Positions 9,368-45,580 of a stretch of DNA of 64,000 bases are shown here, in pieces. The stretch is from NCBI RefSeq assembly GCF_004339245.1, contig NZ_SMGG01000005.1, positions 124,001-188,000 of the forward strand, given 5' to 3'. Positions within the stretch are counted from its first letter, which is position 1; each line of letters starts with the position of its first letter. The DNA is from Seleniivibrio woodruffii (GTDB lineage: Bacteria; Chrysiogenota; Deferribacteres; Deferribacterales; Geovibrionaceae). The notes under the pieces were generated by a model. The model saw nothing but the letters and a program-made list of their open reading frames with translations, did not search any database and was not told the origin of the DNA. The translations under genes and the position numbers were made by a program.

Positions 9368-10996
9368 ATGAGCATGTTTTGTTTTCAGTGTCAGGAGACA
9401 GCGAAAGGCACCGGATGTACTGTTCAGGGTGTCTGCGGAAAAAAAGAAGACACCGCAGGACTGCAGGATCTTCTGGTCTACATTCTTAAAGGACTTGCTG
9501 TGGTTTCCGAAGAGGCAAAAGCCAGAGGCATCAAAACAGAATCTAACGGTCTGTTCGTATGTCAGGCACTCTTTGCAACAATTACCAACGCAAACTTTGA
9601 CAACGACAGAATAATAGAGCTTATCGGCGATGCAATGGCCAGAAGAGACGCTTTGAAAGCGGAGCTGAGCATTGCCGGAGGAATAGACTGTGTTACATGG
9701 AAAGGCAGTGTTGCAGACTATCCTGCAAAAGCGGCCTCTGTGGGCGTTCTGTCTCAGGCCAACGAAGATGTCAGATCCCTTCGTGAGCTTCTGATATACG
9801 GTCTCAAAGGTATGGCGGCATACACGGAACATGCGGCCATGCTCGGTTTCCAGAAGCAGGAGATCTATGACTTTATGTCTGCGGCTCTGGCCTCCACAAC
9901 TAAAGACCTCTCTGTGGACGAAATGGTCGGAATGGTGATGAAGTGCGGCGAGGTCGCCGTTACCGCAATGGCTCTTCTGGACGAGGCGAACACCTCAACT
10001 TACGGCAATCCTGAAATAACTCAGGTTAACATCGGCGTAAGACAGAATCCCGGAATCCTCATCTCCGGTCACGACCTGAAAGATATGGAAGAACTTCTCA
10101 AACAGACAGAGGGAACAGGGGTCGACGTTTATACCCACAGCGAAATGCTCCCAGCAAACTACTATCCCGCATTCAAGAAATATAAGCATTTCGTAGGAAA
10201 CTACGGAAACGCATGGTGGGAGCAGGCAAAAGAGTTCGAATCGTTCAACGGTGCGATCCTTATGACAACAAACTGCATCACACCCGTTAAAGATTCATAC
10301 AAAGACAGATTTTTCACAACAGGAATGGCCGGCTGGCCGGGATGCACCCATATCGGCGACAGACCCGAAGGCGGCGCAAAGGACTTCTCAGCCGTAATTG
10401 TGAAAGCTAAGACCTGCAAACCCCCTGTTGAAATCGAGACAGGATCGATAGTCGGCGGATTCGCACACGCACAGGTCATGGCTCTTGCGGACAAGGTCGT
10501 GGACGCTGTTAAGAGCGGAGCCGTTAAACGCTTCGTGGTCATGGCCGGATGTGACGGCCGCCACAAAACAAGGGAATATTTCTCTCAGGTGGCGGAAGCT
10601 CTGCCCAAGGACATGATAATCCTTACAGCCGGATGCGCAAAATACCGCTATAACAAGCTCCCCCTCGGCGACATCGGCGGAATCCCCCGTGTTCTGGATG
10701 CCGGACAGTGCAACGACTCATATTCGCTGGCGTTCATCGCCCTTAAACTTAAAGAGGTTTTCGGGCTGAAAGACATCAACGAACTCCCCATATCCTACGA
10801 CATCGCATGGTATGAGCAGAAGGCCGTTGTGGTTCTGCTGGCTCTGCTCTTCCTCGGGGTGAAGGGCATCAGGCTCGGACCGACCCTTCCCGGATTCCTC
10901 TCCCCCAACGTTGCGAAAGTGCTGGTGGAGAACTTTAACATCAGGCCCATCGGCTCCGTTGCCGATGATGTTGCGGCCATCACCGCAGGCAGATAA
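9368..10996 (+). CDS. hcp: Hybrid cluster protein (hydroxylamine / NO reductase)
   Basis: Hcp is a cytoplasmic iron-sulfur enzyme that reduces nitric oxide (and hydroxylamine in vitro) and protects cells that respire nitrate. The 542 residues begin with Cys5, Cys8, Cys17 and Cys23 (CX2CX8CX5C), the arrangement of strict-anaerobe Hcp proteins such as Desulfovibrio, unlike the longer spacing of enterobacterial Hcp. Further conserved stretches are [19 protein letters not shown] and [15 protein letters not shown], the latter with hybrid-cluster ligands. The gene has its own promoter and terminator and no Hcr reductase gene beside it. Its place behind narGHJI fits detoxification of NO made during nitrate or nitrite reduction. 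Confidence 0.96.
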
Positions 10997-12233: not shown

Positions 12234-12938
12234 TCAGACTATCCTGTCGGCATCCTCAACAAGGTCGACAAAAGCTCCGGTAGGCTCCACAATTTTTATA
12301 ATTCTGCTTAAACCGTATACTATTATACTCTTATGCCCTTGCCCGCCGCCCTCTTCAATTATAAACATTTCTATGACACCCACCGCAATCACGGCAACAG
12401 CCAGAGAGGTCTCCAGTTTCGGGTGATTAAAAAACCGTGATATTTTCGGAACCAGCTTCCGCATAAATTCGTTTTTATGCTCCTGCTTCCGCATAAAAGT
12501 CACTGAATCCAGCAGAACACTCTGACTTTTAAAGAACAATATCAGTCCGCTGAGCACCGCTCCCAGATGCCATACGGACATTTTGTCCTTAACGTCGGAA
12601 AACTCCTCGATCATCTCAACCGTGCCTATGATCATGAGCAGAAGAGCAACAGCCAGATTGAAAACCCAGTGTTCGGAAATACTGCGCATAAACGCCAGCA
12701 CACCCTTTTTTTTATCCACCGTGTCGCCTATGAGCGCAGTTCCCGTCATCAGCGAAAGCAGCCCTTTAAAAAAAATGACAAGGCTGAAAACGGCAATGGC
12801 ATGGTGGGTTTCAACACCTTCTGAAACCTCCTGCCTGTAGCCGAAAAGCTCCTGAAATTCGGTGAGGGCGCAGACGAACATGAGGATACCCACCGTTACG
12901 TCCAGATATTTGTTGGATGCAATCTTTTTTAAAACCAT
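12234..12938 (-). CDS. Membrane protein with three internal repeats, unknown function
   Basis: I do not recognise a named family. The 234 residues divide into three similar units (about 8-70, 87-150 and 168-222). Each has a helix ending in acidic residues (ALTEFQELFG, GTVEMIEEFSD, GVIEMFIIEEGG) followed by a linker, His or Gly, and a second helix (AVFSLVIFFKGLL, AVLSGLILFFKSQ, IIVYGLSRIIKIV). About six membrane segments are expected. The frame is open upstream to 13001, but ATG 12938 clears the upstream gene and fits the protein start best. It is the last gene of the eleven-gene operon. The small protein at 17174-17494 looks like a single copy of the same unit. Confidence 0.72.
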   Translation of the reverse strand: MVLKKIASNKYLDVTVGILMFVCALTEFQELFGYRQEVSEGVETHHAIAVFSLVIFFKGLLSLMTGTALIGDTVDKKKGVLAFMRSISEHWVFNLAVALLLMIIGTVEMIEEFSDVKDKMSVWHLGAVLSGLILFFKSQSVLLDSVTFMRKQEHKNEFMRKLVPKISRFFNHPKLETSLAVAVIAVGVIEMFIIEEGGGQGHKSIIVYGLSRIIKIVEPTGAFVDLVEDADRIV

Positions 12939-12964
12939 ATTTACACAGTACCTGCAGTGTTTTT

Positions 12965-15100
12965 CTATTTTATGTCGTCGGGACTGTTTATCACTTCGCA
13001 TTCTTCTTCAAGCTCCTCGCTTCCGATCTCCTCAAGAGGCTGACCCTTTGCCCCGGCTATATAAAATGGTTCGTCGAGGTCGAGCTTCTGCCGCTCAAAA
13101 GTTATGGCACGGACACCTTCGGGTGAAATATACGTCAGACCCGACATTACTATAACAACCTTCTCCGCACCGCTGATATCCTCACAAGCCTTACGGAATG
13201 CACCGAGGCCTCTGCTGTCGAACTCGCCGCTCATATATATCTTCCCGATATTTCCCGCCATTTCGCCGTAGCAAGTGAAATGAACTGAAAAGCCCGTGGG
13301 CACCAGCCGCACCTTGACCCTCACCCTGTCCGCCGATTCGGGCAGCCGAACCGTGAGATTCTCAGCATCAAACTCCGAATAGGGTTTTCCGTCTATCTCA
13401 ACAGAAGCTATCGAAACGCTGCCCTTTGGAAGAATATCCGGCGAAACACGCAGAATATTGTCGGGCAGGTTGTTCGGATATGGTTTGAAATAAAAATCCA
13501 TAGGTTCCTTGGTTATCAGCAGATTTGTATAAACCGCCGCCAGATAGCAGAGTTCGAACGAGTGATATCCGCTCATGGAGTGGCTGCCTTTCTCACGCTC
13601 CGTTCCCAGAAGATATGGCAGACCGTTTGCAAGAACGTTGAAATATACACCGCCGGAATCATGGTCGAGGAACCATGCGTTATAGAAAGATGATGATTCC
13701 CGTGCATATTTCAGATATTCGGGTTTGCCCAGAATTCCGTAAAGAATCAGGTATGCCAGAATCCCCTGCTCCTGCTGCCACCATGCCTTTCTGTCATGCC
13801 ATGCGAAACGGTGAAATTTTTCTCCCTGCGCCAGTTCGCGCTCAACCACGTCGTACCAGCCGCATCTCTGCTTATCCATTCCGTGTTCCGGCATCAGAGT
13901 GGCTATCCGTTCCGCCATCAGCCTGTACTTTTCGTCTCCGGTTTCGGAGATTATACGCATAAGGTTCCATGCTATCTTAAGATTGTGCCCCACAACCGCT
14001 CTGTTCTGCTGCCATCCCCATGTCTGGTCTTTGCTCCAGTCCTCGTGGAACTTTTCCTGAACGAAGGCGGAATTTTCATAGTCGGGGAACCTTTCTATTA
14101 TGGTATCGGCACAGTATTTCAGCATGTCGCCGTATTTTTTCTGGCCTGTTGCAAGATAAAGGTTGATGAGATACGCCGGAGCATGGTCGCCCACGGAGTT
14201 CCAGTTTTTTCTGGCTCTGTCATGTGTGAGAGAATCCGCACGGGGATCGAAAGTTATGGGGTCGATATGGGAGAAATAGCCGCCGAGTTCCGTATCTTTG
14301 AAATATTTTTCAAACAGGTTGATGGTGAGCCTTGCGTCTTCGGCGATACGCTTGTCACCTGTCGCCCTGAATGTCTGGACGGGACCTGCCAGAGCATATA
14401 TCTGCTCGTAGGCGGGAATTGCGTCATAATCGTCGCCGAACTCCGAAGCCAGAATTTTTTTCTCTCTGCTGCCTTTAACGTCTATGGCGTGGTACCAGTA
14501 GCACATGTCCTCCGATGATTCCAGAGCTCTGAAATGACTTCGGAGATATTCGGTTCCCTTTTCCGCCGCTTCAAGATATTTTTCGTTGCCCGTGATCAGA
14601 TATGCCGAAGCAAATCCATATACAAGTCTGGAGATCGTGTCGGTTTCCTGACGGAAATCCCCCTCTTTGGAACCGCCGAGAGAGAGATGGGTTCTGTAGT
14701 TTCTATAGTCTATCTCGCCGTCGCCGAACTGGGCGTTGATATAAAAATCCGCAAGCTGTTCAACCTGCTTTATCCACCAGTCCTGCTTTTCGAAACGGAA
14801 CTCGGATCTGGTTCTGCCGACGAAAACAATGTGTTTTGCCTCGAAAGGTTTTCCTTCTTCCGGAAAAAAGATGCCGTAGACGAACAGAAACCGTCCGTTT
14901 TCCAGCATATCTCTCAAAGTTCCTGTGCAGTCGAGATACCCCTCGCCGAGGTTTCTGGACATCTCCGCATAAACGGTGGGGGTGAGTTTCACCTGAAAAT
15001 CCCTGCCGTCGGATGTTTTAAGAACGAAAATATCGGTTTTGAAATCGAAAGACTCCACGTAGCCTGCTATCATGTCCGAAAAAGTAAAATCAGCTTTCAT
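12965..15100 (-). CDS. N-acylglucosamine 2-epimerase-fold protein with C-terminal STAS domain
   Basis: The protein has 711 residues. The first 95 or so form a beta-rich N-terminal domain. The middle (about 110-540) reads like the alpha/alpha-barrel of the AGE/cellobiose epimerase superfamily, with Trp- and His-rich stretches such as WGWQQNRAVVGHNLKIAWN, RFAWHDRKAWWQQEQG and HSMSGYHSFELCYLA. A beta-sandwich-like segment follows, and residues about 618-700 look like a STAS (anti-sigma antagonist) domain. In the STAS signature the site usually read as DSSG is SPEG, so the normal phospho-serine is replaced. The substrate is unknown; a sugar is likely given the neighbour glgX. The ribosome binding site GGAGGG precedes ATG 15100. 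This domain fusion is unusual. Confidence 0.78.
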   Translation of the reverse strand: MKADFTFSDMIAGYVESFDFKTDIFVLKTSDGRDFQVKLTPTVYAEMSRNLGEGYLDCTGTLRDMLENGRFLFVYGIFFPEEGKPFEAKHIVFVGRTRSEFRFEKQDWWIKQVEQLADFYINAQFGDGEIDYRNYRTHLSLGGSKEGDFRQETDTISRLVYGFASAYLITGNEKYLEAAEKGTEYLRSHFRALESSEDMCYWYHAIDVKGSREKKILASEFGDDYDAIPAYEQIYALAGPVQTFRATGDKRIAEDARLTINLFEKYFKDTELGGYFSHIDPITFDPRADSLTHDRARKNWNSVGDHAPAYLINLYLATGQKKYGDMLKYCADTIIERFPDYENSAFVQEKFHEDWSKDQTWGWQQNRAVVGHNLKIAWNLMRIISETGDEKYRLMAERIATLMPEHGMDKQRCGWYDVVERELAQGEKFHRFAWHDRKAWWQQEQGILAYLILYGILGKPEYLKYARESSSFYNAWFLDHDSGGVYFNVLANGLPYLLGTEREKGSHSMSGYHSFELCYLAAVYTNLLITKEPMDFYFKPYPNNLPDNILRVSPDILPKGSVSIASVEIDGKPYSEFDAENLTVRLPESADRVRVKVRLVPTGFSVHFTCYGEMAGNIGKIYMSGEFDSRGLGAFRKACEDISGAEKVVIVMSGLTYISPEGVRAITFERQKLDLDEPFYIAGAKGQPLEEIGSEELEEECEVINSPDDIK

Positions 15101-15111
15101 TCAGCCCTCCG

Positions 15112-17184
15112 TCAGTTTGATAAGAGTATGACAATGCTTCTGCCTTGCACCGTGACCGAATCAGCTTCAACGGAAGGCATGCTTTTGAAATCCGAAAAAT
15201 CGTCGGGGGAATTTTGTGCGGTATCTGCCAGAAGTCCCCATTTTATTCCTTTAATAGCCGGAACCCCGAACCGAAGAGGTTCCCAGTACATATTCATCAT
15301 CACGTGCAGATAGGTTTTTCCGTCCATGGCACTGAGGGTGAAAGCAAGCACCCTTGAGCCTTCATCATCCCAGTTCGGTCTGTTAAGCTCCGTCCCGTGC
15401 CATGTAACCTCCGGCATGCCGTTCTTGTCCTTTCCGTCGGAGAAAAACTCCGCCGAACGTAAGGCATGGAACCTTTTCCGCATCTTTATCAGTTTCTGCA
15501 CATATTCCAGAATGTCGGCGTTCTTTTCAGCAAACGTCCAGTCTGTCCAGCTGATTTCATTGTCCTGACAGTATGCGTTGTTGTTGCCCTGCTGGGTGCG
15601 GCATATCTCGTCCCCTGCCGTTATCATTGGAACACCCTTTGAAATCAGCAGTATTGTCAGAAAATTCTTTATCTGTCTTTTGCGCAGGCTGTTGACCGCC
15701 TCGTCGTCGGTTTCGCCTTCTGCTCCGCAGTTCCAGCTCAGGTTTTCGTCTATGCCGTCCCTGTTGTCCTCTCCGTTTGCATGGTTGTGTTTAGAGTCGT
15801 AAGCCGTAAGGTCGTACAGGGTGAACCCGTCGTGACAGGTGATGAAATTCACGCTGTTGACGGGCATACGCCCCGAAGGGCTGTAAAGGTCGCTGCTGCC
15901 GGACATTCTGTTCGCCAGCTCTCCGATAACCCCCGCATCGCCCTTAACGAATCTGCGCACCGCATCCCGGTATTTTCCGTTCCATTCCGCCCATCTTATA
16001 CCCGGGAAAGAGCCTATCTGATAAAGTCCGGCCGCATCCCAGGCCTCGGCTATGAGTTTTGTGTCCGCCAGAGCCTCCGAAAGCTCTATCTGCCACAGAA
16101 TCGGGGGGAATTTGAGAGGTTTCCCGTTCTCGTCTCTGGAAAGTATCGAACCTTCGTCGAACCTGAACCCGTCCACGTGCATCTCTTCAACCCAGAATTC
16201 CAGACACTCCCTTATCAGCTTTTCAGGGATAGGATGGTTGCATTTAAATGTGTTTCCGCATCCGGTATAGTCCATGTAGAACTGTTTTTCGCTCTCCACC
16301 AGATGATAATAGACACTATTGTCGAACCCTTTGAAATTTATCATCGGCCCCTTGTGGTTGCCCTCGTCAGTGTGGTTAAAAACCACATCCATAATGACCT
16401 CGATGCCCTCTTTGTGCAGAGCCTTGACCATATCCCTGAACTCCTTTATGTGTTCGCCCTCTTCGGGTGAAACGCAGTAGCCGGGGTGGGGAGAAAAAAA
16501 GCTGATAGTGCTGTATCCCCAGTAGTTTGTCAGAGGTTTTCCGTCGGGTGAGTGGCCGATGACGGCCTTGTCGTCGAACTGCATTACAGGCAGAAGCTCA
16601 ACGGCGGTTATCCCCAGTTTTTTGAGATAAGGTATCTTTTCGATAATCCCCTTGTAAGTCCCGGGATTTCTGACCTTTGCACCTTTTCCCGCCGTAAACC
16701 CCTTAACGTGCATTTCATATATTATTGTCTCGTTCATGGGACGGTTCAGGGGTCTGTCGCCCTCCCAGTCATAATTTTCTATATCAATGATAACATTGCG
16801 CATTGCCGTGGTCAGGTTGCTGCCTTTGACGCACGCATTGCCCCTTACCCACAGATTGTCCGTTGAACCGAATCCGTAAGGATCCAGCAGAAGTTTCTCA
16901 TGGTCGAACCTGTGCCCCAGTCCTGTATCTCTGGGACCGTCCACGCTGTAGCCGTAGTGCATCCCCTCTTTCAGTCCTTCAACAAAAACGTGCCAGAAAT
17001 AGAAGGTTCTGTTCTTTTTAGGGTCAAGTTCGATTATCTGAAACGGTTCGGGGTCGTCATGTTCATTGAACAGATACAGACATACAGATGTGGCGCTCTG
17101 AGAAAACACGGAAAAGTTGACGCCGTTTTCACAAACCCTCGCCCCGAGAGGATGGGGACAGCCTCTTTGAACCTTATATTTCAT
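15112..17184 (-). CDS. glgX: Glycogen debranching enzyme, GH13 isoamylase type
   Basis: The enzyme cleaves alpha-1,6 branches of glycogen or limit dextrins in the cytoplasm. The 690 residues contain an N-terminal CBM48 domain (about 10-110) and a GH13 barrel with all four conserved regions: DVVFNH, GFRFDEGS (nucleophile Asp343), AEAWD (acid Glu380) and TCHDG (Asp452). It overlaps the small membrane protein gene by eleven bases and precedes the epimerase-fold gene by eleven bases. No other glycogen genes lie in the window, so this copy probably serves the operon's own purpose, perhaps release of maltodextrins or turnover of a storage glucan under the condition that induces the operon. That last point is inference. 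Confidence 0.93.
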   Translation of the reverse strand: MKYKVQRGCPHPLGARVCENGVNFSVFSQSATSVCLYLFNEHDDPEPFQIIELDPKKNRTFYFWHVFVEGLKEGMHYGYSVDGPRDTGLGHRFDHEKLLLDPYGFGSTDNLWVRGNACVKGSNLTTAMRNVIIDIENYDWEGDRPLNRPMNETIIYEMHVKGFTAGKGAKVRNPGTYKGIIEKIPYLKKLGITAVELLPVMQFDDKAVIGHSPDGKPLTNYWGYSTISFFSPHPGYCVSPEEGEHIKEFRDMVKALHKEGIEVIMDVVFNHTDEGNHKGPMINFKGFDNSVYYHLVESEKQFYMDYTGCGNTFKCNHPIPEKLIRECLEFWVEEMHVDGFRFDEGSILSRDENGKPLKFPPILWQIELSEALADTKLIAEAWDAAGLYQIGSFPGIRWAEWNGKYRDAVRRFVKGDAGVIGELANRMSGSSDLYSPSGRMPVNSVNFITCHDGFTLYDLTAYDSKHNHANGEDNRDGIDENLSWNCGAEGETDDEAVNSLRKRQIKNFLTILLISKGVPMITAGDEICRTQQGNNNAYCQDNEISWTDWTFAEKNADILEYVQKLIKMRKRFHALRSAEFFSDGKDKNGMPEVTWHGTELNRPNWDDEGSRVLAFTLSAMDGKTYLHVMMNMYWEPLRFGVPAIKGIKWGLLADTAQNSPDDFSDFKSMPSVEADSVTVQGRSIVILLSN

Positions 17185-17494
17185 TTCCTATCCTCTCTTC
17201 CAGCCTGCCGAGCCTGTTTTCAATGTCTGCCAGTCTGTCGGTTTCCCCGCTGTCCGGCTCAACCGCAGTTTCAATATTCATCGCCCCCATAATGATAAAA
17301 GCAAAGGCCGCTATTATGTTGAACGCACCCAGAATCAGGTAGCCGTAGGCAATATTGAACTCAACACCCAGAATGTTTTTGAAAAGATTCTCCGAAAGGG
17401 ATATCAGCCCCATGATTATCAGAACCACGCCGATAAAGAAAACGGTATGGTGGTCTCTGACTATCTTTTTGACAAGGAGGTTCAGATGTTTCAT
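17174..17494 (-). CDS. Small two-helix membrane protein with coiled-coil tail
   Basis: The protein has 106 residues. Two membrane helices (about 17-36 and 48-70) are joined by a short loop, followed by an acidic linker and a C-terminal heptad-like segment (DRLADIENRLGRLEERIG) that should form a coiled coil. The helix pair resembles one repeat of the last gene of the operon (12234-12938): a helix ending in an acidic or polar segment, then a second helix beginning GYLILGAF. It overlaps glgX at the 3' end and the PfpI-like gene at the 5' end. The function is unknown; it might be a membrane anchor or adaptor for operon products. Confidence 0.7.
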   Translation of the reverse strand: MKHLNLLVKKIVRDHHTVFFIGVVLIIMGLISLSENLFKNILGVEFNIAYGYLILGAFNIIAAFAFIIMGAMNIETAVEPDSGETDRLADIENRLGRLEERIGNEI

Positions 17495-18042
17495 TTTATC
17501 ATCCCGATTATGGTATGGGCAAAAAGCCCGCAGTGTTCGCCTGTTCTGGCTGTCACAAAGTCGCCGTCGGTGAATACGTCGCTGTCGACGTATTCAAGCC
17601 CGTAGTTTTTCGCATCACCCAGAAGATTGTTGTGAACAACCCCTTTGCGCCCCTTAAGAACTTCCGCCACAGGCGACATCAGCCAAAGGCCGTGACAGAT
17701 TATCCCCTTGATAATATTCTTATTTTCAAACGCACGCTTCATAAACAAAGATGCGGGCGGCAGTTTGGTGATGTCCTCGGTATATCTCAGCCTGTCGGCT
17801 GAGTACCCCGCCGGGACTATCACTGCGCTGTAAGATCCCAGCTCTTCGTCCGTCATATTTTCGAAACTTCTGTCACAGTCGAACGGGGCTTTGAACTCGT
17901 GTCCGTAAAAGGTCAGTTTGGGCTGCCCCCACAGTCTGGACATGAAATGCGCCTCTATCCCCTCTTCTGCGAAGCGGAAATGATAATAGAATATCTCCTT
18001 TTCGAAAAAATCCGTCTCGATGAGTATGGCAACCTTCTTCAT
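17491..18042 (-). CDS. DJ-1/PfpI family protein (second copy in operon)
   Basis: The protein has 183 residues with the flavodoxin-like DJ-1/PfpI fold. The nucleophile-elbow motif GIICHGLWLMSP places the reactive cysteine at 116, followed by a His as in the PfpI group. Members act as proteases, deglycases, glyoxalases or chaperones, so the exact activity cannot be read from sequence. It overlaps the upstream SnoaL-ankyrin gene by four bases. The operon begins with another, longer DJ-1/PfpI protein; the two are clearly different and not a recent duplication. Confidence 0.83.
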   Translation of the reverse strand: MKKVAILIETDFFEKEIFYYHFRFAEEGIEAHFMSRLWGQPKLTFYGHEFKAPFDCDRSFENMTDEELGSYSAVIVPAGYSADRLRYTEDITKLPPASLFMKRAFENKNIIKGIICHGLWLMSPVAEVLKGRKGVVHNNLLGDAKNYGLEYVDSDVFTDGDFVTARTGEHCGLFAHTIIGMIK

Positions 18043-19496
18043 AAGCCGCTCCGTTCCCTGATTTTAACCGTCAGAGGATGTTTATCGCCGAACACCTCCA
18101 GCGCAAGGTCATAGGGAGTAAGCCCGTCGTGCCCCCTGAGCTTCAGAGCGCATCCGCTGTTGACCAGCACCTCGGCACACTTGTCAAAGCCGTGCCAGAG
18201 AGCGTCGTGCAGAGGAGTGTAGCCGTTGGAAGGCCCCTGATAGTCCATGTTTATTCCTGCCTGCGAGCAGAGAAGCTGTGTTATATCCGCAAATCCGTTA
18301 TAAGTTGCCTTATGGAGAGGTACTGCGCCGAAGGTCGGCTCTATCGCATTGATGTCCGCTCCCGCTTCGATAAGTATTTTCGCTATATCGTAAAATCCGC
18401 TTCTGCATGCAACGTGCAGAGGGGTGTGTCCGTCGTTGAAACCGTTCAGAATAGGAGCCCGTTCGTTCACGTCCGCCCCCGATCCGATACATGCTTTCAC
18501 CTCGTCACATTTATTATCGATAACAGCCTGCATCAGTTTCTGGCTCTCCGCCCTTTTCCTGTCGTCTTCTATGCGTTTGTCAACCATATCCTTGATGGTA
18601 TACAGCTTATCCTTACACCTCGTTGAAACATTCAGTGCGTAGTTAAGATGATCAAGGAGGCTGAACCCGTAATTGGTCTTAATGTTAAGCCACGCTCCGT
18701 TATCCAGAAGATACTGAACTATCTCAGGATATTTGAACCATATCGCCTCTATAAGAGGAGTATGCCCGGTGGAAACCGCCTGCGTGTTTATAAATGCGCC
18801 GTGTTCCGCAAGCAGCTTAACGATTTCGAGATAACCGCCCTGACATGCCTTGTGCATTGCGGACGCTCCCGCAAGCTCGTCAAGGGTGTTGGGATTCGCC
18901 CCCTTTCTTAGGAGCATTGAAGCTATCTCCGCTTCACCTATTCCTGCGGCGGTCATGAGCAGGGTCAGCTTTGTTTCGGGATTTACATAATTAGGGTCTG
19001 CGCCGAATTTCAGAAGCTCCCTCGCCGAATGTCTGTCCTTTGAAAGCACAGCACCCAGAAGCCTTTCGTTCAGATCTCCACGAAAAGCTACTATACCGAA
19101 AGCGGTATCCCAGTAAGACTTCCATCTTACTATTTTTCCGTCTTTAACCGTGAGCCTGTGGATGAACTCTATGTCGTAGTACAGTCCGGTGGGGATTATC
19201 TTCGCCTTTTCATGGACAAGCCCTATGGCCTCGTCGCCGTTTATAAAAAGTTCCAGCAGCTCAAAGCTCTCCACCTCGGAGAGTTTCGCCCACACCATAA
19301 ATGTCTGGTGAACTTCGCCCACGCCGTGATATTCGCCCAGCCACGGAATTATCTCGGAAAGCCCGGGAATGGGTTTCGTATTAGACCAGACGACGTTTTT
19401 GTCCAGATACTCCATGGCCGAAGCGCCGTCCCTTTCACGCAGTGCTTTGAACCATTTGTCGGCAACCGCTTTCGTATCGTTTTTTAACAAGCTCAT
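18039..19496 (-). CDS. SnoaL-like domain fused to ankyrin repeats
   Basis: The protein has 485 residues. The first 130 or so read as a SnoaL/NTF2-like polyketide-cyclase or ketosteroid-isomerase fold (ADKWFKALRERDGASAMEYL near the start, then FIHRLTVKDGKIVRWKSYWD). The rest is about eight ankyrin repeats in two blocks (about 140-290 and 320-475), with clear repeats such as DGHTPLHVACRSGFYDIAKI. There is no signal peptide, so it should be cytoplasmic. Ankyrin repeats bind proteins, so it may dock the SnoaL fold onto another operon product. A stand-alone SnoaL-like gene lies immediately upstream (three bases between them). The fusion is uncommon. Function unknown. Confidence 0.82.
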   Translation of the reverse strand: MSLLKNDTKAVADKWFKALRERDGASAMEYLDKNVVWSNTKPIPGLSEIIPWLGEYHGVGEVHQTFMVWAKLSEVESFELLELFINGDEAIGLVHEKAKIIPTGLYYDIEFIHRLTVKDGKIVRWKSYWDTAFGIVAFRGDLNERLLGAVLSKDRHSARELLKFGADPNYVNPETKLTLLMTAAGIGEAEIASMLLRKGANPNTLDELAGASAMHKACQGGYLEIVKLLAEHGAFINTQAVSTGHTPLIEAIWFKYPEIVQYLLDNGAWLNIKTNYGFSLLDHLNYALNVSTRCKDKLYTIKDMVDKRIEDDRKRAESQKLMQAVIDNKCDEVKACIGSGADVNERAPILNGFNDGHTPLHVACRSGFYDIAKILIEAGADINAIEPTFGAVPLHKATYNGFADITQLLCSQAGINMDYQGPSNGYTPLHDALWHGFDKCAEVLVNSGCALKLRGHDGLTPYDLALEVFGDKHPLTVKIRERSGL

Positions 19497-19499
19497 ATG

Positions 19500-19871
19500 T
19501 CAGTCCATTTTAAGCCCGGAGGCGTAGTATATTTTTATTTTACCGTTTTCCAGAAGCCACGCATCGGAAGTCATCCATTTTCCGGTGTTGGAGGAGGTTA
19601 CTATCAGCTGGAATGCAATCATGTTGCCCATTCCGATAAAATTAAGCGGTTCGCTGACTGTAACGTCCCCCTGATTTTTCGGGTCGAATATCACTTTCTC
19701 CGCCGCAATTATCTCATCGTGTCCCGAGTGAACGTATGGAGCCTCGCCCTCAAAAAAAGGAAAGTTATGATAAAGCACCGCATCTTCCGTATAGGTATCC
19801 TTCACCATGTTTTCGAAATCCTTTCTGAAGACATATTCCATGTGCTCTTTGAAAAACTGTTTATGATCCAT
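19500..19871 (-). CDS. SnoaL-like (NTF2-fold) protein
   Basis: This small 123-residue protein has the NTF2/SnoaL pattern: an N-terminal helix pair (FKEHMEYVFRKDFENMVKDTY), the segment VLYHNFPFFEG, and a C-terminal sheet ending GKIKIYYASGLKMD. Such folds bind small hydrophobic substrates and act as isomerases, cyclases or binding proteins; no catalytic residue can be named. It lies three bases before the SnoaL-ankyrin gene and three bases after the isomerase-like gene, within the operon. Confidence 0.75.
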   Translation of the reverse strand: MDHKQFFKEHMEYVFRKDFENMVKDTYTEDAVLYHNFPFFEGEAPYVHSGHDEIIAAEKVIFDPKNQGDVTVSEPLNFIGMGNMIAFQLIVTSSNTGKWMTSDAWLLENGKIKIYYASGLKMD

Positions 19872-19874
19872 GAT

Positions 19875-20186
19875 TTACCTCGGCTGTGGAAAGCCGTTTT
19901 TAACATCTTCTATGAATCCTTCGTAGTCCCTCAGTGCCCAGACGTGCTCAAACTCCAGATATTCCCGCATGGGCAGCCAGCCCATGGAATTTCTGTCCAG
20001 ATCCTCAAGGGAATCCACGTCAACAATGGCTATCACCCTGTGCTGGGAAACAACTTTAAAAAGCTGAACCTTCCCTGTTTTTATACCCGCAATGCCGTGG
20101 TTGCCCTCTATCGCCTCCATCTCCCAGAGCTGATCCTGACTGATCCTGCCCTGATAATTCCATTTCATCTGTACGAAAAAAAGCAT
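19875..20186 (-). CDS. Muconolactone-isomerase-like small protein
   Basis: The protein has 103 residues. The start (MLFFVQMKW) and the central pattern with Gly-His-Gly-Ile and WLPMREYLEFEHVW resemble the ferredoxin-like fold of muconolactone delta-isomerase. In catabolic pathways that enzyme moves a double bond in a lactone. No other beta-ketoadipate pathway gene is present here, so the fold may serve a different small molecule. The start overlaps the stop of the EthD-like gene (TGATG). Confidence 0.66.
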   Translation of the reverse strand: MLFFVQMKWNYQGRISQDQLWEMEAIEGNHGIAGIKTGKVQLFKVVSQHRVIAIVDVDSLEDLDRNSMGWLPMREYLEFEHVWALRDYEGFIEDVKNGFPQPR

Positions 20187-20875
20187 CAGTCCCTCCCTTT
20201 GATTATCCAGTTTTCCTGAACAGTCATGGAAAACAGATATCCGGTTTCAACCAGTCCCGCCAGACAGGGCATTATGTCGAAAACGTATTCGCTTGATTCT
20301 ATGAATGTGTTCAGGTCGTCGGTATTCAGAAACGAAAAAACCTCGACGGAATCGAACCTCGCCTCGCCTACCGCATATGCGCCGTCCACCGCATGGCAAA
20401 GCATGTATCTTTTTATTTCGTCAAAATATGTGTTCATGGGGGCGTATACCTTTTGAAGGTCACTTCTGTATGTGCCGAGTTTCAGCCCTTCCTTACGTTT
20501 AAGCAGTCTGACCAGCTTAACGTATCCTGTTTCCGTTATCTCCTCATCGCCGAATACATAATCTTCGGTGGTATCGACCACCAATGATTTCCAGAACGCC
20601 GCCCAGTTGGGTTCGTCCAGCCTTGCACCCTGAAGAAATTCTTTGGTCTGGAGCGAGGCTATCTGCTCCTCCGGCTTTATCCATATTTCCGCTATGCCGC
20701 TGAAAAGCGGTTCGCCTGTCTCGTTTTCCTGTTTTATCCTTGTGTCAACGATGTACTTTTTGATCTGCGGTATCTTCGAGGCATAGTTAACCGCATGATT
20801 GTTCACCCAGTAATCCTGAAAGGCCTCTTCCGTCATGCCCGGTTTTGGCGAGGCAAATATAAACTGATGTATCAT
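20186..20875 (-). CDS. EthD-like (dimeric alpha-beta barrel) protein
   Basis: The protein has 229 residues with two copies of an EthD/ABM-type ferredoxin-like unit: about 1-110 (KPGMTEEAFQDYWVNNHAVN is the typical EthD start) and 115-229 (LKRKEGLKLGTYRSDL onward). Such proteins are small oxygenase-like or binding proteins of uncertain chemistry. The frame is open to 20908, but ATG 20875 has a GGAGG ribosome binding site seven to eight bases upstream. Fifteen bases separate it from the ThDP enzyme gene. Confidence 0.75.
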   Translation of the reverse strand: MIHQFIFASPKPGMTEEAFQDYWVNNHAVNYASKIPQIKKYIVDTRIKQENETGEPLFSGIAEIWIKPEEQIASLQTKEFLQGARLDEPNWAAFWKSLVVDTTEDYVFGDEEITETGYVKLVRLLKRKEGLKLGTYRSDLQKVYAPMNTYFDEIKRYMLCHAVDGAYAVGEARFDSVEVFSFLNTDDLNTFIESSEYVFDIMPCLAGLVETGYLFSMTVQENWIIKGRD

Positions 20876-20889
20876 CACGTCCTCCGAAT

Positions 20890-22578
20890 TCACTGCCCGC
20901 AGCGGCATCCCGCCTGATGGTTTTTGTGGTCAGTATCCACGGACAAATCTATGAGAAACGGTTTGTCCGTCGACAGCATGGCGTCTATTGCGCCAGCGAT
21001 GTCCTCTCTTCGTTCAACCCGCAGTGCATCAACCCCGAACCCCCTCGCTATGGACACAAAATCCACTGCAGGAGAGTCTATGGAAAAGCACTCGGGGAAA
21101 ATTTCGTTCTCCATTGCCTGCTCTCTCCAGTATTGGCTGATGTTCAGCTTCAACAGTTTATAACTCATGTTGTTGCACACCACGAACTTTGCGCCTATGC
21201 CGTGGTGAGCCGCTGTCCAGAGAGCCTGAATCGTATACAGACATCCGCCGTCACCGCTGAAACCTATAACTGTTTTTTCGGGGTTTGCGGTTTTTATACC
21301 TATCGCCCCCGGAAAACCCACCCCGAGGGAGCCGCCTCTGGTCTGGAAATAGGTTCCTCTGTCTTTCGGCACGATAAATGCCGTAAGCTCAGGCGATGAT
21401 GTCAGTGCTTCATCAAAAATAACCGTATCCGCCGGAATCTTTTCCTTAAGAACCTTTGCAAACTCGTGCATCTTTAGAGGCGCATCCTTCTCAAGCTCAG
21501 GAAAATCGGGGGACTTGACCGTATTTGCAAGGGTTTCAAACCTGCTGCGGAACCTTTTCCTGTCGGCTTCCGAAGCGTTCTCTTTTATCAGAGCCGTGAC
21601 CTTTTTCAGTGTCAGCCCGATGTCCGCACTGACGGCGGTGTCGACCCTGTGGTTCTTAGCTATCTCGTAATCGTTGAGGTCGATATGCATGACCTTTGCA
21701 GACGCATTGAAAATTTCTCCAGTTTCAGGGAAAACCTCTGGAAGCATATAGGTTCCCAATATCAGCGCCGCATCCGCTTTCATTGTCACTGGAAGGCTCG
21801 CAAACCCGAACATATGCCCTGTCATGCCCTTCCAGCAGGGGCTGGTGTTGTCCATATTCAGTTCGCCGCAGTCAGCACCGTACACCTCCGCACCGATAAG
21901 CTCCGCAAGTTCCTTAACGGCCTCTTCCGCACCGCAGTACGCAACTCCGTCACCTATGAAAAACACAGGTGTTTCGGCGCATACAAGAGATGCGGCTATT
22001 TCGGCACACACGCCGTCGTCGGCGGGAGCTGTCTTTATTACTGATGCGGAAGGGAAAACCTGTTCGGTGTTGATTTCATCCAGAATGTCCGCAGGCAGGC
22101 AGACATATACAGGCCCCATTGGCGGTGTTGAGGCTATCTTCACGGCTCTGCGCAGGGTGCGCAGGACACTGTCCTTGTGCAGAACCATCGTCGAATACTT
22201 TGTAACGGGCTTCATTATGCCCGTCAGATCCGCCGCCATCTGGGCATCCATGTTCATATATTTCACGCCCGCATCCCCCGCTATTATCACAAGGGGGGAG
22301 TGGCCTCTGTATGCCTGATACACCGCGCCGACGGCATTTCCTATGCCGGGGGAGCTGTGGAGCTGAACAACAGTGGGCTTTTTCGTGCTTCTGGCGTATC
22401 CGTCCGCCGCCATAACGGCGATACTCTCCTGAAGCGTCAGGATATACTTGAGCTGCGGGTAGTTTTTAAGCTCGTTCAGAAAACCCTGCTCGACAGTTCC
22501 CGGGTTGCCGAAGATATATTCGATACCGTCGGCGATGAGCTGTTCAAGGAGCTTGCGGTTTCCCGTTTTACCATCCAT
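20890..22578 (-). CDS. Thiamine-diphosphate-dependent decarboxylase/synthase
   Basis: The enzyme has 562 residues with the three-domain layout of the acetolactate synthase, benzoylformate decarboxylase and oxalyl-CoA decarboxylase superfamily. Glu51 in TLQESIAVMAADGYAR is the cofactor-activating glutamate. The ThDP/Mg motif runs from GDGG (442-445) to NN (469-470). The N-terminal part FGNPGTVEQGFLNEL resembles benzoylformate decarboxylase. The C terminus carries a His/Cys tail (HKNHQAGCRCGQ) that may bind metal. The substrate is probably a 2-oxo acid or aldehyde but cannot be told from sequence. It overlaps the first operon gene by eleven bases. Confidence 0.86.
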   Translation of the reverse strand: MDGKTGNRKLLEQLIADGIEYIFGNPGTVEQGFLNELKNYPQLKYILTLQESIAVMAADGYARSTKKPTVVQLHSSPGIGNAVGAVYQAYRGHSPLVIIAGDAGVKYMNMDAQMAADLTGIMKPVTKYSTMVLHKDSVLRTLRRAVKIASTPPMGPVYVCLPADILDEINTEQVFPSASVIKTAPADDGVCAEIAASLVCAETPVFFIGDGVAYCGAEEAVKELAELIGAEVYGADCGELNMDNTSPCWKGMTGHMFGFASLPVTMKADAALILGTYMLPEVFPETGEIFNASAKVMHIDLNDYEIAKNHRVDTAVSADIGLTLKKVTALIKENASEADRKRFRSRFETLANTVKSPDFPELEKDAPLKMHEFAKVLKEKIPADTVIFDEALTSSPELTAFIVPKDRGTYFQTRGGSLGVGFPGAIGIKTANPEKTVIGFSGDGGCLYTIQALWTAAHHGIGAKFVVCNNMSYKLLKLNISQYWREQAMENEIFPECFSIDSPAVDFVSIARGFGVDALRVERREDIAGAIDAMLSTDKPFLIDLSVDTDHKNHQAGCRCGQ

Positions 22579-23392
22579 ATCTCTTAAGTCCTTTGTCGAG
22601 CATGTTTACAAGCTGCTCGCCGAACTCGTGCGAACACTGGAGCGAACGGGCGGTTATGAACGGATAGTCCACTATGACCGACGTCTCTTTTCCGAAATTG
22701 CCGTGGTATCCTCCGCCGGAACCGACAGCATCCCGAAGCATATACTCAAGCACATAGGGAGGAGGCCCGATGTTGAGGTCTGTTCCCACAAAGCCCGTGC
22801 CGTCGTGATAGTCGTATTCTATGCAGTGACCCGTGACGTGCTTGCCCTCAATGATGGGTTTACGTTCGTTGAAATCCCTTGCAAAAACAAGACAGGCAAC
22901 GCCGTAGCATATTGCCGCTATGGGCTTGTCCATTTTTCTGAATGCAAGGATAAGGTCGTGTACACGCTGGTTGTTCACCATGTCGATAAGCGGACCGCTT
23001 CCGCCCACAAGCAGTATTCCTGCGTATTCGGAAAGCTCCGCCTCCAGCTTTTTAAGCTCCGAATAATAGGCTTCGAGCTTGCGGAGAAAATTTTCCGTAC
23101 TGTAGTAGGGTCTTTCGGGAACCCATGCAGATAAGTTTTTAGGATTGTCCAGTTTGGGTGAATCTTTGATGCTTTTGACCTGCTCTGCATCGAAAGGTGT
23201 TGTTACACATTTTCCGAGGGGAGGATCCATATATGAAGTGTCATAGCTCGGGGGAAGAGCTACCGGTCTCATTCCTCTGGGTGTGGCAAATGTCAGCTCA
23301 TAGCCGGCCTGCTCCAGCTTGACCATGGGTCCGGTAAGCTCAACACCCCAGTATCCGTAATTGGAAAGAATCGCTAAAATTTTCTTAGCCAT
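22568..23392 (-). CDS. DJ-1/PfpI family protein, Hsp31-like length (first gene of operon)
   Basis: The protein has 274 residues with the type-1 glutamine-amidotransferase-like DJ-1/PfpI fold. The nucleophile elbow is AAICYGVACLVF with Cys162; the glutamate usually near the N terminus is in the region GYWGVELTGPM. The length and the insertion (about 60-120) resemble the Hsp31/HchA side of the family, whose members act as glyoxalases or holdase chaperones. AAGGAGA precedes ATG 23392. It leads an eleven-gene operon behind a structured leader (23441-23508). Confidence 0.83.
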   Translation of the reverse strand: MAKKILAILSNYGYWGVELTGPMVKLEQAGYELTFATPRGMRPVALPPSYDTSYMDPPLGKCVTTPFDAEQVKSIKDSPKLDNPKNLSAWVPERPYYSTENFLRKLEAYYSELKKLEAELSEYAGILLVGGSGPLIDMVNNQRVHDLILAFRKMDKPIAAICYGVACLVFARDFNERKPIIEGKHVTGHCIEYDYHDGTGFVGTDLNIGPPPYVLEYMLRDAVGSGGGYHGNFGKETSVIVDYPFITARSLQCSHEFGEQLVNMLDKGLKRYGW

Positions 23393-23440
23393 CTCAAATC
23401 TCCTTAGTGTGCTTTTTCCTCCCTAGTGCCCCGAAATCGC

Positions 23441-23508
23441 AAAAAAAAGTCAGACGTGCCCTGTGCCCCGGTTCTGTATGTTTGCACGAGGGACGGAAAC
23501 TATCTGAC
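23441..23508 (-). promoter_or_regulatory. Structured 5' leader ending in a U-tract, candidate cis-regulatory RNA
   Basis: On the minus strand GTCAGA (23508-23503) pairs with TCTGAC (23454-23449), immediately followed by eight T residues (23448-23441). Inside, CCCTcGTGC (23492-23484) pairs with GCACAGGG (23466-23459), with one bulged C and a 17-base loop. The first stem begins right at the predicted transcription start. The shape is that of a ligand- or protein-controlled attenuator, or a plain leader terminator that must be overcome. I do not recognise a known riboswitch class in it. Confidence 0.55.
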
Positions 23509-24981: not shown

Positions 24982-26223
24982 TTATTTTCCCGCTAATGCA
25001 AACGTATATCTCAGATATATTCTGGTGTCAGTGTAGTCATCGGCATCTTTGTTATCTATAAAGGCATATCTTGCCCTGACGCTGAATCCGTCCAGAATGC
25101 CGCCGAAGTTTTTGCCGAAGTCATACTGAATGTTATAGTCCATTTCGTTGGCGTCAGTAGTTTTTCCGTTGATCTCAGGTGCGTTGTACACACCGTAAAG
25201 GACATATGCTGACAGTCCTTTCAACCCGAGCTGACCAAAGTCGTATCCGATTTTTGCCGCGATAGCTTCCTCTTTGGCAAACTGAGAGGCCAGAACCTGC
25301 TGGTTGATCACACGACTGTCACCCCAGGGCGTAAGAAGGTTTGTATCGCCGGTTTTGGCGTAATATGCGTTCAGTGAGATGCCGTATGCAGATGCACCCG
25401 CAGCAACACCAATCTGGTCGCTGTCCAGATTGCCTGCCAGTTCATCCCCTTTGGATTTTTGAGTGAAATATGTGGGTTCAAGGCTCAGTTTAAAATCGCC
25501 GAGCTGTTTTGCGGCAGTGACTTTATAATATGTCATATCCATAACATCGGACATGCTGTACAGCCAGCCCTCTGCTGATACATCCAGAACATTTACAGGA
25601 AGTTTGTATTTAGCACCTCCGATCAGCATCGGTTTGTTCTCGTCCGCTGTTTTTGCCGCAGAGTCTGAAACCTGCATGTAGTCATCATCGGCCCACCCCA
25701 TGTAGCCTGTGATGAAATATCCCTGAAGTTCCAGATTAGGTATGCTTTTATTGATAACAGATGCGCCTTTATAAGATTTCGGAAGCAGACGGATGTCGTT
25801 TCCGTTCATAAAGGGCGTGTTGATCATTTGACCGCCGTATTTCAGGGTTGTGTTAAACCACTGTCCCTGAACGTACATTTCCTGCATTCTGGTGACGCTG
25901 TCATGGTTTCCGTTCTGATCCTTCGGCAGAAGTCCGTATACGGCTTTACCGTCGCTGCTTCCCGTATCATTTACGGTTGCGAAAGTAACACCAAAGCTGA
26001 CACCTTTCAGTGCTGCGGACTTATAGCCGAAAAGTCCGCCTGTGGCGTAGTCTTCCCTCTCTTTCTGGGTGGAATCAAAATCCCTGTCATAATAATATGA
26101 CCTGAGTTCTCCGTTCACACTGCCCTGACTGAACATCTCTTTAAGATTATCTGCAGCAAAGCAGGTGGAGGAGGTCAGAAGAGCAAATGAACCGAGAAGA
26201 ATCGGTATCCTTTTAAAATCCAT
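24982..26223 (-). CDS. Outer-membrane porin, OprD-like
   Basis: The protein has 413 residues: a Sec signal peptide (1-23, ending TCFAAD) and a beta-barrel with many alternating short strands. It ends in a C-terminal strand (IYLRYTFALAGK) of the type seen in Campylobacter/Pseudomonas OprD-like porins. RSYYYDRDF near the mature N terminus and the long variable loops fit that family, which often passes carboxylates, amino acids or peptides. A sigma-54 promoter (26263-26278) and a palindromic site (26353-26367) lie upstream and match those of the flavoprotein operon. The porin therefore probably admits the substrate of that reductase. The substrate is not known. Confidence 0.83.
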   Translation of the reverse strand: MDFKRIPILLGSFALLTSSTCFAADNLKEMFSQGSVNGELRSYYYDRDFDSTQKEREDYATGGLFGYKSAALKGVSFGVTFATVNDTGSSDGKAVYGLLPKDQNGNHDSVTRMQEMYVQGQWFNTTLKYGGQMINTPFMNGNDIRLLPKSYKGASVINKSIPNLELQGYFITGYMGWADDDYMQVSDSAAKTADENKPMLIGGAKYKLPVNVLDVSAEGWLYSMSDVMDMTYYKVTAAKQLGDFKLSLEPTYFTQKSKGDELAGNLDSDQIGVAAGASAYGISLNAYYAKTGDTNLLTPWGDSRVINQQVLASQFAKEEAIAAKIGYDFGQLGLKGLSAYVLYGVYNAPEINGKTTDANEMDYNIQYDFGKNFGGILDGFSVRARYAFIDNKDADDYTDTRIYLRYTFALAGK

Positions 26224-33787: not shown

Positions 33788-33983
33788 AAATCTGTGATAT
33801 TCAAAATTTTGTGTATTTATCAAAAATGCACGTAACACTTCAGGCAGATTAATATTTTCTACTATTATCTTTATAGCCATACAAAATAAAATAAGTTGGT
33901 GGAACTTATCTTCAATCTATCAAATCAGAGTTTCCAATGTGATATATTATATAATTAATATTAAACAATGGAGCATGGATATA

Positions 33984-35027
33984 ATGCTTGTAAAATACTA
34001 CGGGTTCTATTTCGACAACAATTCAAATAAACATATATTAAGAGATGATTTTATATCCAATGGTTTTTTCCGCATAACGCAGCCAAAGTTTCTTAATGAT
34101 AAAGGGAGTGAAGCAAAGCTTTTTCCGTATTTTAACGAATTTTCACCAGCAGATTTAGCATGGGCAAGGAAGCGTCATGACAAAATACAAAAAGATCCAA
34201 ATTATACTCCTTCTGAGGAAGAGTTAATTAATTTCTTTTTAAAGCCTGTGGGCGAGAGATATGGAGAACATTTTCCACATCTACTCAGAATGGAAACAGA
34301 CTATGAGACAATGGATGAATATGATAAAGACCAATTTACAAATATTGTAGAAAAAATGAATCACTATATGATAGAAATTATAAGTTGCCAACTCGGAGTA
34401 CTCTCTTTATGTAAATCTGATACGAACGAACTTATGTGGACACATTATGCAAGCGCAGGCGAGGGAATCGCAGTAACATTTAAAGAAAGTCATGAATTTT
34501 TTAAAAAATATGTACCTAAAGATGTCAGTTATCTTCCAGAAAAAAGAGCTTCGCTAACTTATTATAAGGGCAGTATAAGAATCAACGGAGAACCTATCAA
34601 AACATTTACACAACCTAACATTACTAATCCATTTGCAGCTTTAATAGTTTTGAATAAAAATGGCGTTGATATTCAAAATTTCACAGAAAGATTGATCTAT
34701 GCTAAAGCAGAAAAATGGAAATCAGAAGATGAGGTAAGAATAATCTGCATGTTAAATTCTTGTGAACACAAAACAGGAAAAGTAATCACTCCAAAATTAG
34801 ATATTGATTTCCCTCAGGCTACATTACACAGTTATTCTGAAATTTGCCTAAAAAAAATCCCATTCGATGCTTTTGAAAGCATAGTCTTAGGTTACGGTAT
34901 TAGCAAAGCTAATAAAAATATGATAATAGAAAAAGTTAAGGCAAACCCAGAGCTGTCACACATCAAGATCAAGATTGCGCAACACAATATATATGGAAAT
35001 TTAGAAACTACAGAGATAAATACATAA
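33984..35027 (+). CDS. DUF2971 family protein
   Basis: The protein has 347 residues. The segment LGVLSLCKSDTNELMWTHYA followed by GEGIAVTF is the family hallmark of DUF2971; the start (YYGFYFDNNSNKHIL) and LIYAKAEKWKSEDEVRI fit as well. No biochemical role is established; such genes often occur in variable islands next to defence or toxin-antitoxin genes. Several in-frame ATG codons are present; 33984 has GGAG about ten bases upstream. The gene is much more A+T rich than its surroundings and lies between the tRNA-Arg repeats, so it was probably acquired by transfer. Confidence 0.75.
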   Translation: MLVKYYGFYFDNNSNKHILRDDFISNGFFRITQPKFLNDKGSEAKLFPYFNEFSPADLAWARKRHDKIQKDPNYTPSEEELINFFLKPVGERYGEHFPHLLRMETDYETMDEYDKDQFTNIVEKMNHYMIEIISCQLGVLSLCKSDTNELMWTHYASAGEGIAVTFKESHEFFKKYVPKDVSYLPEKRASLTYYKGSIRINGEPIKTFTQPNITNPFAALIVLNKNGVDIQNFTERLIYAKAEKWKSEDEVRIICMLNSCEHKTGKVITPKLDIDFPQATLHSYSEICLKKIPFDAFESIVLGYGISKANKNMIIEKVKANPELSHIKIKIAQHNIYGNLETTEINT

Positions 35028-39103: not shown

Positions 39104-39176
39104 GCCCAGGTAGCTCAGTCGGTAGAGCAGTGGACTGAAAATCCACGTGTCGATGGTTCGATTCCGTCCCTGGGCA
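39104..39176 (+). tRNA. tRNA-Phe (anticodon GAA)
   Basis: A complete cloverleaf: acceptor GCCCAGG/CCTGGGC, D arm GCTC-AGTCGGTA-GAGC, anticodon stem GTGGA/TCCAC with loop CTGAAAA (anticodon GAA), and T arm with TTCGATT. CCA is not encoded. The 3' part (from 39135) is repeated at 46836-46879, because the integrative element used this gene as its insertion site and restored the 3' end. Confidence 0.95.
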
Positions 39177-39178
39177 TT
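39135..39178 (+). repeat. Left attachment site (attL), 3' half of tRNA-Phe
   Basis: 44 bases from the anticodon loop of tRNA-Phe to two bases past its end, identical to 46836-46879. The intact tRNA is on this side. Confidence 0.92.
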
Positions 39179-39206
39179 ACAAAAATCTGAATAATATCAG
39201 AAAGAT

Positions 39207-39235
39207 AAAAAGCCTCTGTTTTCACAGAGGCTTTT
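39207..39235. terminator. Bidirectional terminator inside the element, after tRNA-Phe
   Basis: AAAAGCCTCTG (ends 39218) pairs perfectly with CAGAGGCTTTT (39225-39235) around a six-base loop. It ends tRNA-Phe transcription on the plus strand. On the minus strand it lies about 50 bases beyond the hamB stop and can end the element's transcript. Confidence 0.85.
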
Positions 39236-39287
39236 GTCGTTTTAGGCTATGTTGTAAATTTGTTGTAAATCACATCCTACTTTATAA

Positions 39288-42327: not shown

Positions 42328-42531
42328 TTAGCCTCTTTCACAATATCTAAAAGAATATAAATAATTAAATACCACCAAAATAAACTAATCAAGACGAATA
42401 TAAATTAACTCTTTAGAAATCGCGTATTAATACTCTTTTCTTAATATTACCTTCCTCTGCCTCTTTAAATTAATGACTTGATAAATCATACTCAGAACTC
42501 TATTTTCATTTTCCATATATAATAATTTCAT

Positions 42532-43710: not shown

Positions 43711-43734
43711 ACGCCACGACGTGCCGTGAATCGC

Positions 43735-43941: not shown

Positions 43942-43945
43942 GATG

Positions 43946-43973
43946 TCCTCCTATGTTCGATTTGATAGGAGGA
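43946..43973 (-). promoter_or_regulatory. Hairpin that hides the ribosome binding site of the excisionase-like gene
   Basis: TCCTCCTAT (43946-43954) and ATAGGAGGA (43965-43973) are perfect complements with a ten-base loop. On the minus strand the second-transcribed arm contains AGGAGG, five bases before ATG 43941, so folding would block ribosome access. Confidence 0.6.
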
Positions 43974-44953: not shown

Positions 44954-44959
44954 AATGAT

Positions 44960-45572: not shown

Positions 45573-45580
45573 AATGTATC

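Follow-up and report, generated by a model that had tools for sequence, protein, structure and literature searches.

We have analysed eleven neighbouring genes of Seleniivibrio woodruffii, whose products include a glycogen debranching enzyme (GlgX), an AGE-type epimerase fused to a STAS domain and two DJ-1/PfpI proteins, and have compared them with the icfG operon of Synechocystis sp. PCC 6803. The genes are situated in a stretch of 64,000 nucleotides (positions 124001-188000 of contig 5 in a genome of 2.9 Mb), called the window hereafter. Eleven intact open reading frames (ORFs), numbered g1 to g11 in the 5' to 3' direction, occupy positions 12234-23392 of the window, all on the minus strand. 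The tight packing claimed in a preliminary description of this DNA was confirmed: adjacent frames overlap by 1-37 bases or are separated by at most 11 bases, the boundaries from g1 to g6 being an 11-base overlap, a 19-base overlap, a 1-base overlap and two 3-base gaps, and those from g6 to g11 two 4-base overlaps, an 11-base overlap, an 11-base gap and a 37-base overlap, the last of which becomes a 26-base gap if the second Met is the start of g11. From this spacing we infer that the eleven genes are co-transcribed, and they are referred to below as the operon.

Families were assigned with Pfam and NCBIfam profiles, which agreed with the folds proposed earlier for two DJ-1/PfpI proteins, a thiamine diphosphate (ThDP) enzyme, an EthD protein, a muconolactone-isomerase-like (MIase) protein, a SnoaL-ankyrin protein, GlgX and the AGE protein. 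The product of g9 (15112-17184) is a GlgX that exceeds the curated cut-off of TIGR02100 (709.5 bits versus 640.9; E 3.5e-213), its GH13 catalytic residues Asp343, Glu380 and Asp452 being conserved in 82/82 sequences. The two DJ-1/PfpI proteins are g1 (D1; 22568-23392; ThiJ_like PF17124, 1.4e-16, and PF01965, 1.7e-10), with the nucleophile Cys162 conserved in 24/24 relatives, and g7 (D2; 17491-18042; PF01965, 1.7e-16), with the nucleophile pair Cys116-His117 conserved in 66/66; g1 scored 37.8 bits with the HchA glyoxalase III model NF003168, whose cut-off is 365. A ThDP-dependent 2-oxoacid decarboxylase/carboligase-like enzyme with TPP_enzyme N, M and C domains is encoded by g2 (20890-22578). 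Its closest solved relatives are benzoylformate decarboxylases, its Glu51, GDG motif and Asn470 are conserved among relatives, and it reached 314 bits against the 493 required by the benzoylformate decarboxylase model NF005485; His74 stands at what we take to be the place of the active-site histidine of that enzyme. The smaller products are an EthD-domain protein (g3, 20186-20908; PF07110, 4.7e-10), an MIase-fold protein (g4, 19875-20186; PF02426, 1.5e-7) that remained far below the muconolactone delta-isomerase cut-off of TIGR03221 (23.8 versus 130.6 bits), a SnoaL/NTF2-like protein (g5, 19500-19871) and a fusion of a SnoaL-like domain with ankyrin repeats (g6, 18039-19496; SnoaL_2, 6.5e-9; Ank_2, 7.4e-48). 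The SnoaL-like nature of g5, also suggested before, is backed by a weak SnoaL_2 match, but this match (E 0.0027) is below the cut-off.

The largest product, g10 (12965-15100; PF07221, 4e-17), was modelled with a mean predicted local distance difference test (pLDDT) score of 84.5 as an OB-like N-terminus, an (alpha/alpha)6 barrel, a beta domain and a STAS domain. The best fold match is the glucose-2-epimerase 8h1l (Runsl_4512 of Runella slithyformis), and the N-terminal domain alone gave weak but consistent matches to OB folds. The protein has the (alpha/alpha)6 barrel and the two conserved histidines of the AGE superfamily: His372 and His513 are invariant in 81/81 sequences and are presumably, by alignment, the catalytic histidines of the superfamily. 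The STAS domain, located at about residues 608-704, is supported both by alignment to stand-alone STAS proteins and by the structure model. Finally, g8 (17174-17494) encodes a two-helix membrane protein and g11 (12234-13001) a membrane protein of three units with two transmembrane helices (2-TM) each, in agreement with the triple repeat noticed previously; by family comparison g8 and each unit of g11 belong to one small 2-TM family.

Relatives of the AGE protein were collected in a scan with one genome per species, in which at least 533 were confirmed and the best 80, spanning about a dozen phyla, were kept. Many of these loci are truncated at contig ends, their ORFs were called mechanically, and several come from metagenome bins with possibly wrong names (e.g. 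L027, a 'Bifidobacterium breve' bin). In annotated neighbourhoods of distant phyla the same partners recur, namely both DJ-1 genes, the ThDP gene, AGE, GlgX or another alpha-amylase-family gene, and usually STAS, accompanied by further genes for GlgB, GlgE, TreS, GlgA, GMC oxidoreductase, hydrolase, SnoaL and VOC proteins. GlgX is on the AGE strand in nearly all loci and is the immediate neighbour in 56 of the 62 loci with a fused AGE-STAS gene; D2 is present in 67/87 loci (49/57 among those with long flanks). Homologues of g11 stand immediately 3' of AGE in about ten loci, with three units in L010 and L032 and one unit elsewhere, and a copy of the g8 family precedes GlgX in L014 and L015 as well.

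A second module, consisting of the g1-type DJ-1, the ThDP enzyme, and often EthD, SnoaL-ankyrin and MIase proteins, was found both with the fused AGE-STAS form and with the icfG form described below. Of 26 loci with the ThDP gene, 19 have D1 next to it; homologues of g5 occur in 14 loci, those of g4 in L009, L019, L026 and L045 (each also with a ThDP gene), and strong same-family matches of g6 in these four loci, L014 and L020. The complete set of D1, ThDP, EthD, SnoaL-ankyrin, D2, GlgX and AGE is present together in six further loci: L009 (Streptomyces), L014, L019 (Chromatiales), L026 (Betaproteobacteria), L045 (Actinomycetota) and L064 (Roseospira). In L026 the order D1-ThDP-EthD-SnoaL/ankyrin-MIase-SnoaL-D2-(hydrophobic protein)-AGE-GlgX is nearly that of the window. 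Plasmids gave the same picture: a tblastn search with g10 yielded 17 matches that span 80% or more of the AGE protein, in Nostoc, Gloeothece, Gloeocapsopsis, Streptomyces, Deinococcus, Runella and Gemmobacter; the ThDP clade was found on 14 plasmids (45-57% identity, the next record having 31%), all 14 of which also carry AGE, and the nine plasmids with EthD, where same-cluster homologues of g3 have 42-51% identity, are likewise all among the AGE plasmids. The expectation that the order of these families is conserved elsewhere was thus borne out, and the possibility that they never co-occur does not apply; because the gene order is conserved, the operon is a real functional set. In the Ktedonobacteraceae bin L057 (5790-12500) the cluster is followed by apparent molybdenum-hydroxylase subunits, UbiX/UbiD-type decarboxylase genes and a D1-like gene, as judged by eye from the N-termini.

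In Synechocystis salina (L066) and other cyanobacteria the order is D2-AGE-STAS-GlgX-STAS-SpoIIE phosphatase-RsbW kinase, and the D2-AGE-STAS-GlgX part is preceded by a gene for a CMD-family protein. This cluster is the icfG operon, slr1852-slr1862. Products g7, g10 and g9 correspond to Slr1854, Slr1855 plus Slr1856, and Slr1857, respectively, g7 being assigned to Slr1854 on the strength of the gene order in S. salina. Like icfG, the window has the genes of the second DJ-1, AGE and GlgX clustered on one strand; stand-alone STAS phosphoproteins with a conserved acceptor serine are missing from the operon. We are highly confident that the core of the operon (second DJ-1, AGE, STAS, GlgX) is the icfG core, and the earlier designation as a candidate undescribed system has to be given up, since the core matches the Synechocystis operon (order in L066; PMC12329169, PMC8670252). 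The operon is not a chance assembly and has in part been described already; in the literature searched we found no paper that names the wider cluster. From earlier work cited in one report, Slr1861 phosphorylates Slr1856 and Slr1859, IcfG dephosphorylates Slr1856, glucose and low carbon are conditions in which icfG mutants are impaired, and a role in carbon/glucose control is described for Synechocystis icfG only (PMC12329169); the icfG operon is also reported to be salt-repressed (PMC8670252). Mixed content was observed in L011 (5123-7838, a Nitrospirota bin), a fused-type locus that keeps the CMD gene and, by eye, a Slr1852-like gene of the icfG form, and also has a pirin gene.

The two forms differ most clearly in the STAS domain and its partners. 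Among 86 STAS-bearing loci, STAS is fused to AGE in 62 and separate in 24. RsbW-type genes lie near AGE in none of the 62 fused loci and in 17 of the 24 unfused ones; when only loci with 5.5 kb or more of downstream sequence are considered, these counts are 0/49 and 15/16. No such kinase or phosphatase gene was seen near AGE in the 62 fused loci, whereas in icfG-form loci, with STAS separate, the kinase and the phosphatase are usually close by; in the window neither a SpoIIE-type phosphatase nor an RsbW-type kinase was among the genes identified around the operon. Of the 48 stand-alone STAS proteins, 47 have Ser at the acceptor position, while the residue found there in the 62 fused domains is Ser in 17, Thr in 13, Ala in 9, Pro in 9, Lys in 6, Glu in 5, Arg in 2 and Asp in 1. 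In g10 it is Pro with an adjacent Glu (SPEG). With another residue in place of the acceptor serine and the neighbourhood free of kinase and phosphatase genes, the STAS domain of g10 cannot be assumed to be a working phospho-switch; the fused form probably operates free of such a switch. The preliminary description had taken STAS, DJ-1 and GlgX as pointers to a stress- or stationary-phase programme, which may or may not exist; the association of glycogen, reactive carbonyls and a stress-switch domain is a sensible reading. On the AGE tree, obtained in a short tree search, the fused state needs a single change, and the fused clade (63 rows, SH-aLRT branch support 93) contains many phyla mixed together; judged from these sequences, the AGE-STAS fusion arose once and then spread widely. 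The only exception among the stand-alone proteins is that of L009 (Streptomyces sp. SAT1, 25328-25780), which has VPAG at the acceptor site and no nearby kinase, apparently a case in which the switch decayed independently and no fusion took place.

Upstream of g1 a leader was recognized, as stated before, with terminator-like and antiterminator-like folds; the single promoter claimed together with it could not be found by a sigma-70 consensus scan, which detected none on the minus strand ahead of g1 and gave about as many total sites as shuffled sequences. The terminator-like hairpin (23444-23508, minus strand; GUCAGA...UCUGAC followed by a U run) has -20.3 kcal/mol with a z of -2.26, and its pattern matched once in the window and never in 100 shuffles. 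The competing long-range pairing (23418-23496, minus strand), of CCGUCCCUCGUGC (23496-23484) with GCACUAGGGAGG (23429-23418), is the minimum-energy fold of the full leader and of a sub-stretch, although it is no better than in shuffles (z about 0) and is suggestive only. By these folds the leader is a plausible attenuator. At the Rfam gathering score only two tRNAs and no leader family were detected in the whole window; a known riboswitch was rejected, the matches at E<=10 being weak and at chance level, and so was a repeated genomic element, the leader being single-copy in the genome.

The AGE gene was absent from 59 of 59 other genomes searched, four of the same genus included, the ThDP clade was absent from the same set (best other matches about 31% identity), and GlgX was absent from the same-genus relatives. 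Since the same-genus relatives are without AGE, the ThDP enzyme and GlgX, the operon is either a recent gain or was lost in the relatives. One same-genus relative keeps the adjacent MFS-OprD-sigma54-regulator block with 64-81% identity and has other genes at the operon position, one for an MscL-like channel and others, judged by eye, for molybdoenzyme-related proteins; a precise empty insertion site could not be defined there, only a replaced region. The G+C content of the operon (0.49-0.50), next to flanks of 0.49-0.55 (nar/hcp side) and 0.42-0.46 (opposite side), is not decisive on acquisition. The genome contains glycogen synthase genes and a distant phosphorylase-like gene, and g9 is its sole GlgX.

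Elsewhere in the window, a probable integrative element lies at a tRNA gene (39104-46741), where the G+C content drops to 0.31-0.39. It encodes a Hachiman-type HamB-like helicase (39288-41633), beside which a partner ORF is situated, and further a replication-initiator-like protein (42532-43710) as well as a phage-type integrase (45581-46741). A DUF2971 protein (33939-35027) matches the candidate defence family PDC-S31. Beside the nitrate reductase gene there is a second hydroxylamine-reductase (Prismane/Hcp) gene (9368-10996), the other copy being on contig 4; matching relatives carry one copy each.

Taken together, we favour, with some reserve, the reading that the operon is an icfG-type carbon-storage cluster in a variant that has spread horizontally and has no switch. 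Its metabolic role can be outlined only tentatively from the families present: sugar would be set free from glycogen and epimerised at C2, and reactive carbonyls would be dealt with. GlgX would trim short malto-oligosaccharides off glycogen, and the AGE protein might epimerise or isomerise glucose or the reducing end of a malto-oligosaccharide at C2, so that storage sugar would enter a side route. Aldehydes, 2-oxo compounds or other reactive products of this route could be the targets of both DJ-1 proteins, of the ThDP carboligase/decarboxylase and of the proteins of the EthD, MIase and SnoaL families. The fused STAS domain would serve docking or assembly instead of a phospho-switch, the 2-TM proteins g8 and g11 are possible membrane anchors, and the attenuator-like leader may set expression. 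In its most specific and speculative version, which we consider unlikely, the OB-fold/AGE/STAS fusion would act on malto-oligosaccharides freed by GlgX, as part of a widespread mobile glycogen side route with C2 epimerisation and a ThDP/DJ-1 carbonyl branch, and a former partner-switch protein would have become the permanent, phosphorylation-independent scaffold of a membrane-anchored complex.

Several points weigh against the favoured reading, or limit it. The 80 loci are those nearest to the query and not an even sample, many of them being cyanobacterial; because the fusion is a single event, kinase loss counts as one historical change, whatever the number of loci. The ThDP module is missing from many AGE loci, and in 14 of the 25 whole genomes whose AGE locus is without ThDP it is missing from the entire genome. 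Sequence does not tell which substrates the AGE, ThDP, EthD, MIase and DJ-1 proteins use, and the explanation is drawn from sequence comparison and a structure model. Ser or Thr is retained in about half of the fused STAS domains (30/62), which may be phosphorylated by a distant kinase; this genome does encode HATPase_c_2 (RsbW-type) proteins outside the operon, and one Synechocystis kinase serves STAS proteins encoded elsewhere (PMC12329169). On these grounds the fused STAS could still be a partner-switch, by which a kinase and a phosphatase from elsewhere in the genome gate the epimerase or free an anti-sigma factor. We regard this as rather improbable in view of the SPEG site of g10, the lack of kinase and phosphatase genes near all 62 fused loci, and an acceptor site that is unconserved in the fused form.

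The switch-free storage cluster has also to be weighed against a pathway for the synthesis or degradation of one specific compound (e.g. aromatic or polyketide-like), to which the glycogen enzymes only feed sugar. The SnoaL, EthD, MIase, GMC oxidoreductase, alpha/beta hydrolase, VOC and CMD genes that gather round the core elsewhere, and the run of ester-cyclase/SnoaL genes in Runella, are in line with such a pathway, but the set differs strongly between loci while D2-AGE-GlgX is constant, no constant polyketide synthase, terpene synthase, nonribosomal peptide synthetase or ring-cleaving enzyme was seen, and the MIase and ThDP members are far below the equivalog cut-offs; this explanation is unlikely. 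Far less credit can be given to an anti-phage defence or stress island without common metabolic function, even though the patchy distribution, the plasmid location, the ankyrin protein and the Hachiman-like element 16 kb away would suit it: PADLOC returned only generic ankyrin and amylase-domain matches and none of its specific models, so a defence system was rejected, the active sites of the enzymes are intact and conserved, and the homologous icfG operon works in carbon control (PMC12329169). Chance gathering of unrelated genes, which the very different folds and the rarity of g4 and g11 might suggest, is practically refuted by the comparative data, since the families recur together in distant phyla and are near-collinear in L026 and L014.

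In the literature searched, work on icfG is confined to Synechocystis, where it is treated as a carbon-control locus and its metabolic enzymes are left without an assigned function. The enzyme core of icfG is now found in hundreds of species and on plasmids, with one form that has shed the regulatory switch; comparison of the two forms can part enzyme function from control and makes the role of icfG testable beyond cyanobacteria. The AGE-STAS fusion provides a clean natural case in which a phospho-switch domain was recruited into an enzyme once and the switch site was lost afterwards.

Compared with known proteins, g10 resembles the epimerase Runsl_4512 (8h1l) in the (alpha/alpha)6 barrel and the two catalytic-type histidines, but has only about 20% identity with it and possesses additional OB-fold, beta and C-terminal STAS domains. 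Similarly, g1 and g7 share the superfamily (by Pfam) and the nucleophile cysteine with Hsp31/HchA and PfpI-type DJ-1 proteins (glyoxalase III/deglycase), yet both are far below the HchA and PfpI cut-offs, and g2 has the three domains, the ThDP-activating Glu and the GDG...N motif of benzoylformate decarboxylase and acetolactate synthase, yet forms its own clade with about 30% identity to proteins outside it and is below all equivalog cut-offs shown. With the icfG operon of Synechocystis sp. PCC 6803, viewed in S. salina, the window shares the clustering of DJ-1/PfpI, AGE-type epimerase, STAS and GlgX. It differs in that STAS is fused to AGE and is without the acceptor serine, that the second STAS protein, the IcfG phosphatase, the RsbW-like kinase and the CMD protein are missing, that GlgX precedes AGE, and that D1, ThDP, EthD, MIase, SnoaL, ankyrin and 2-TM membrane genes are added.

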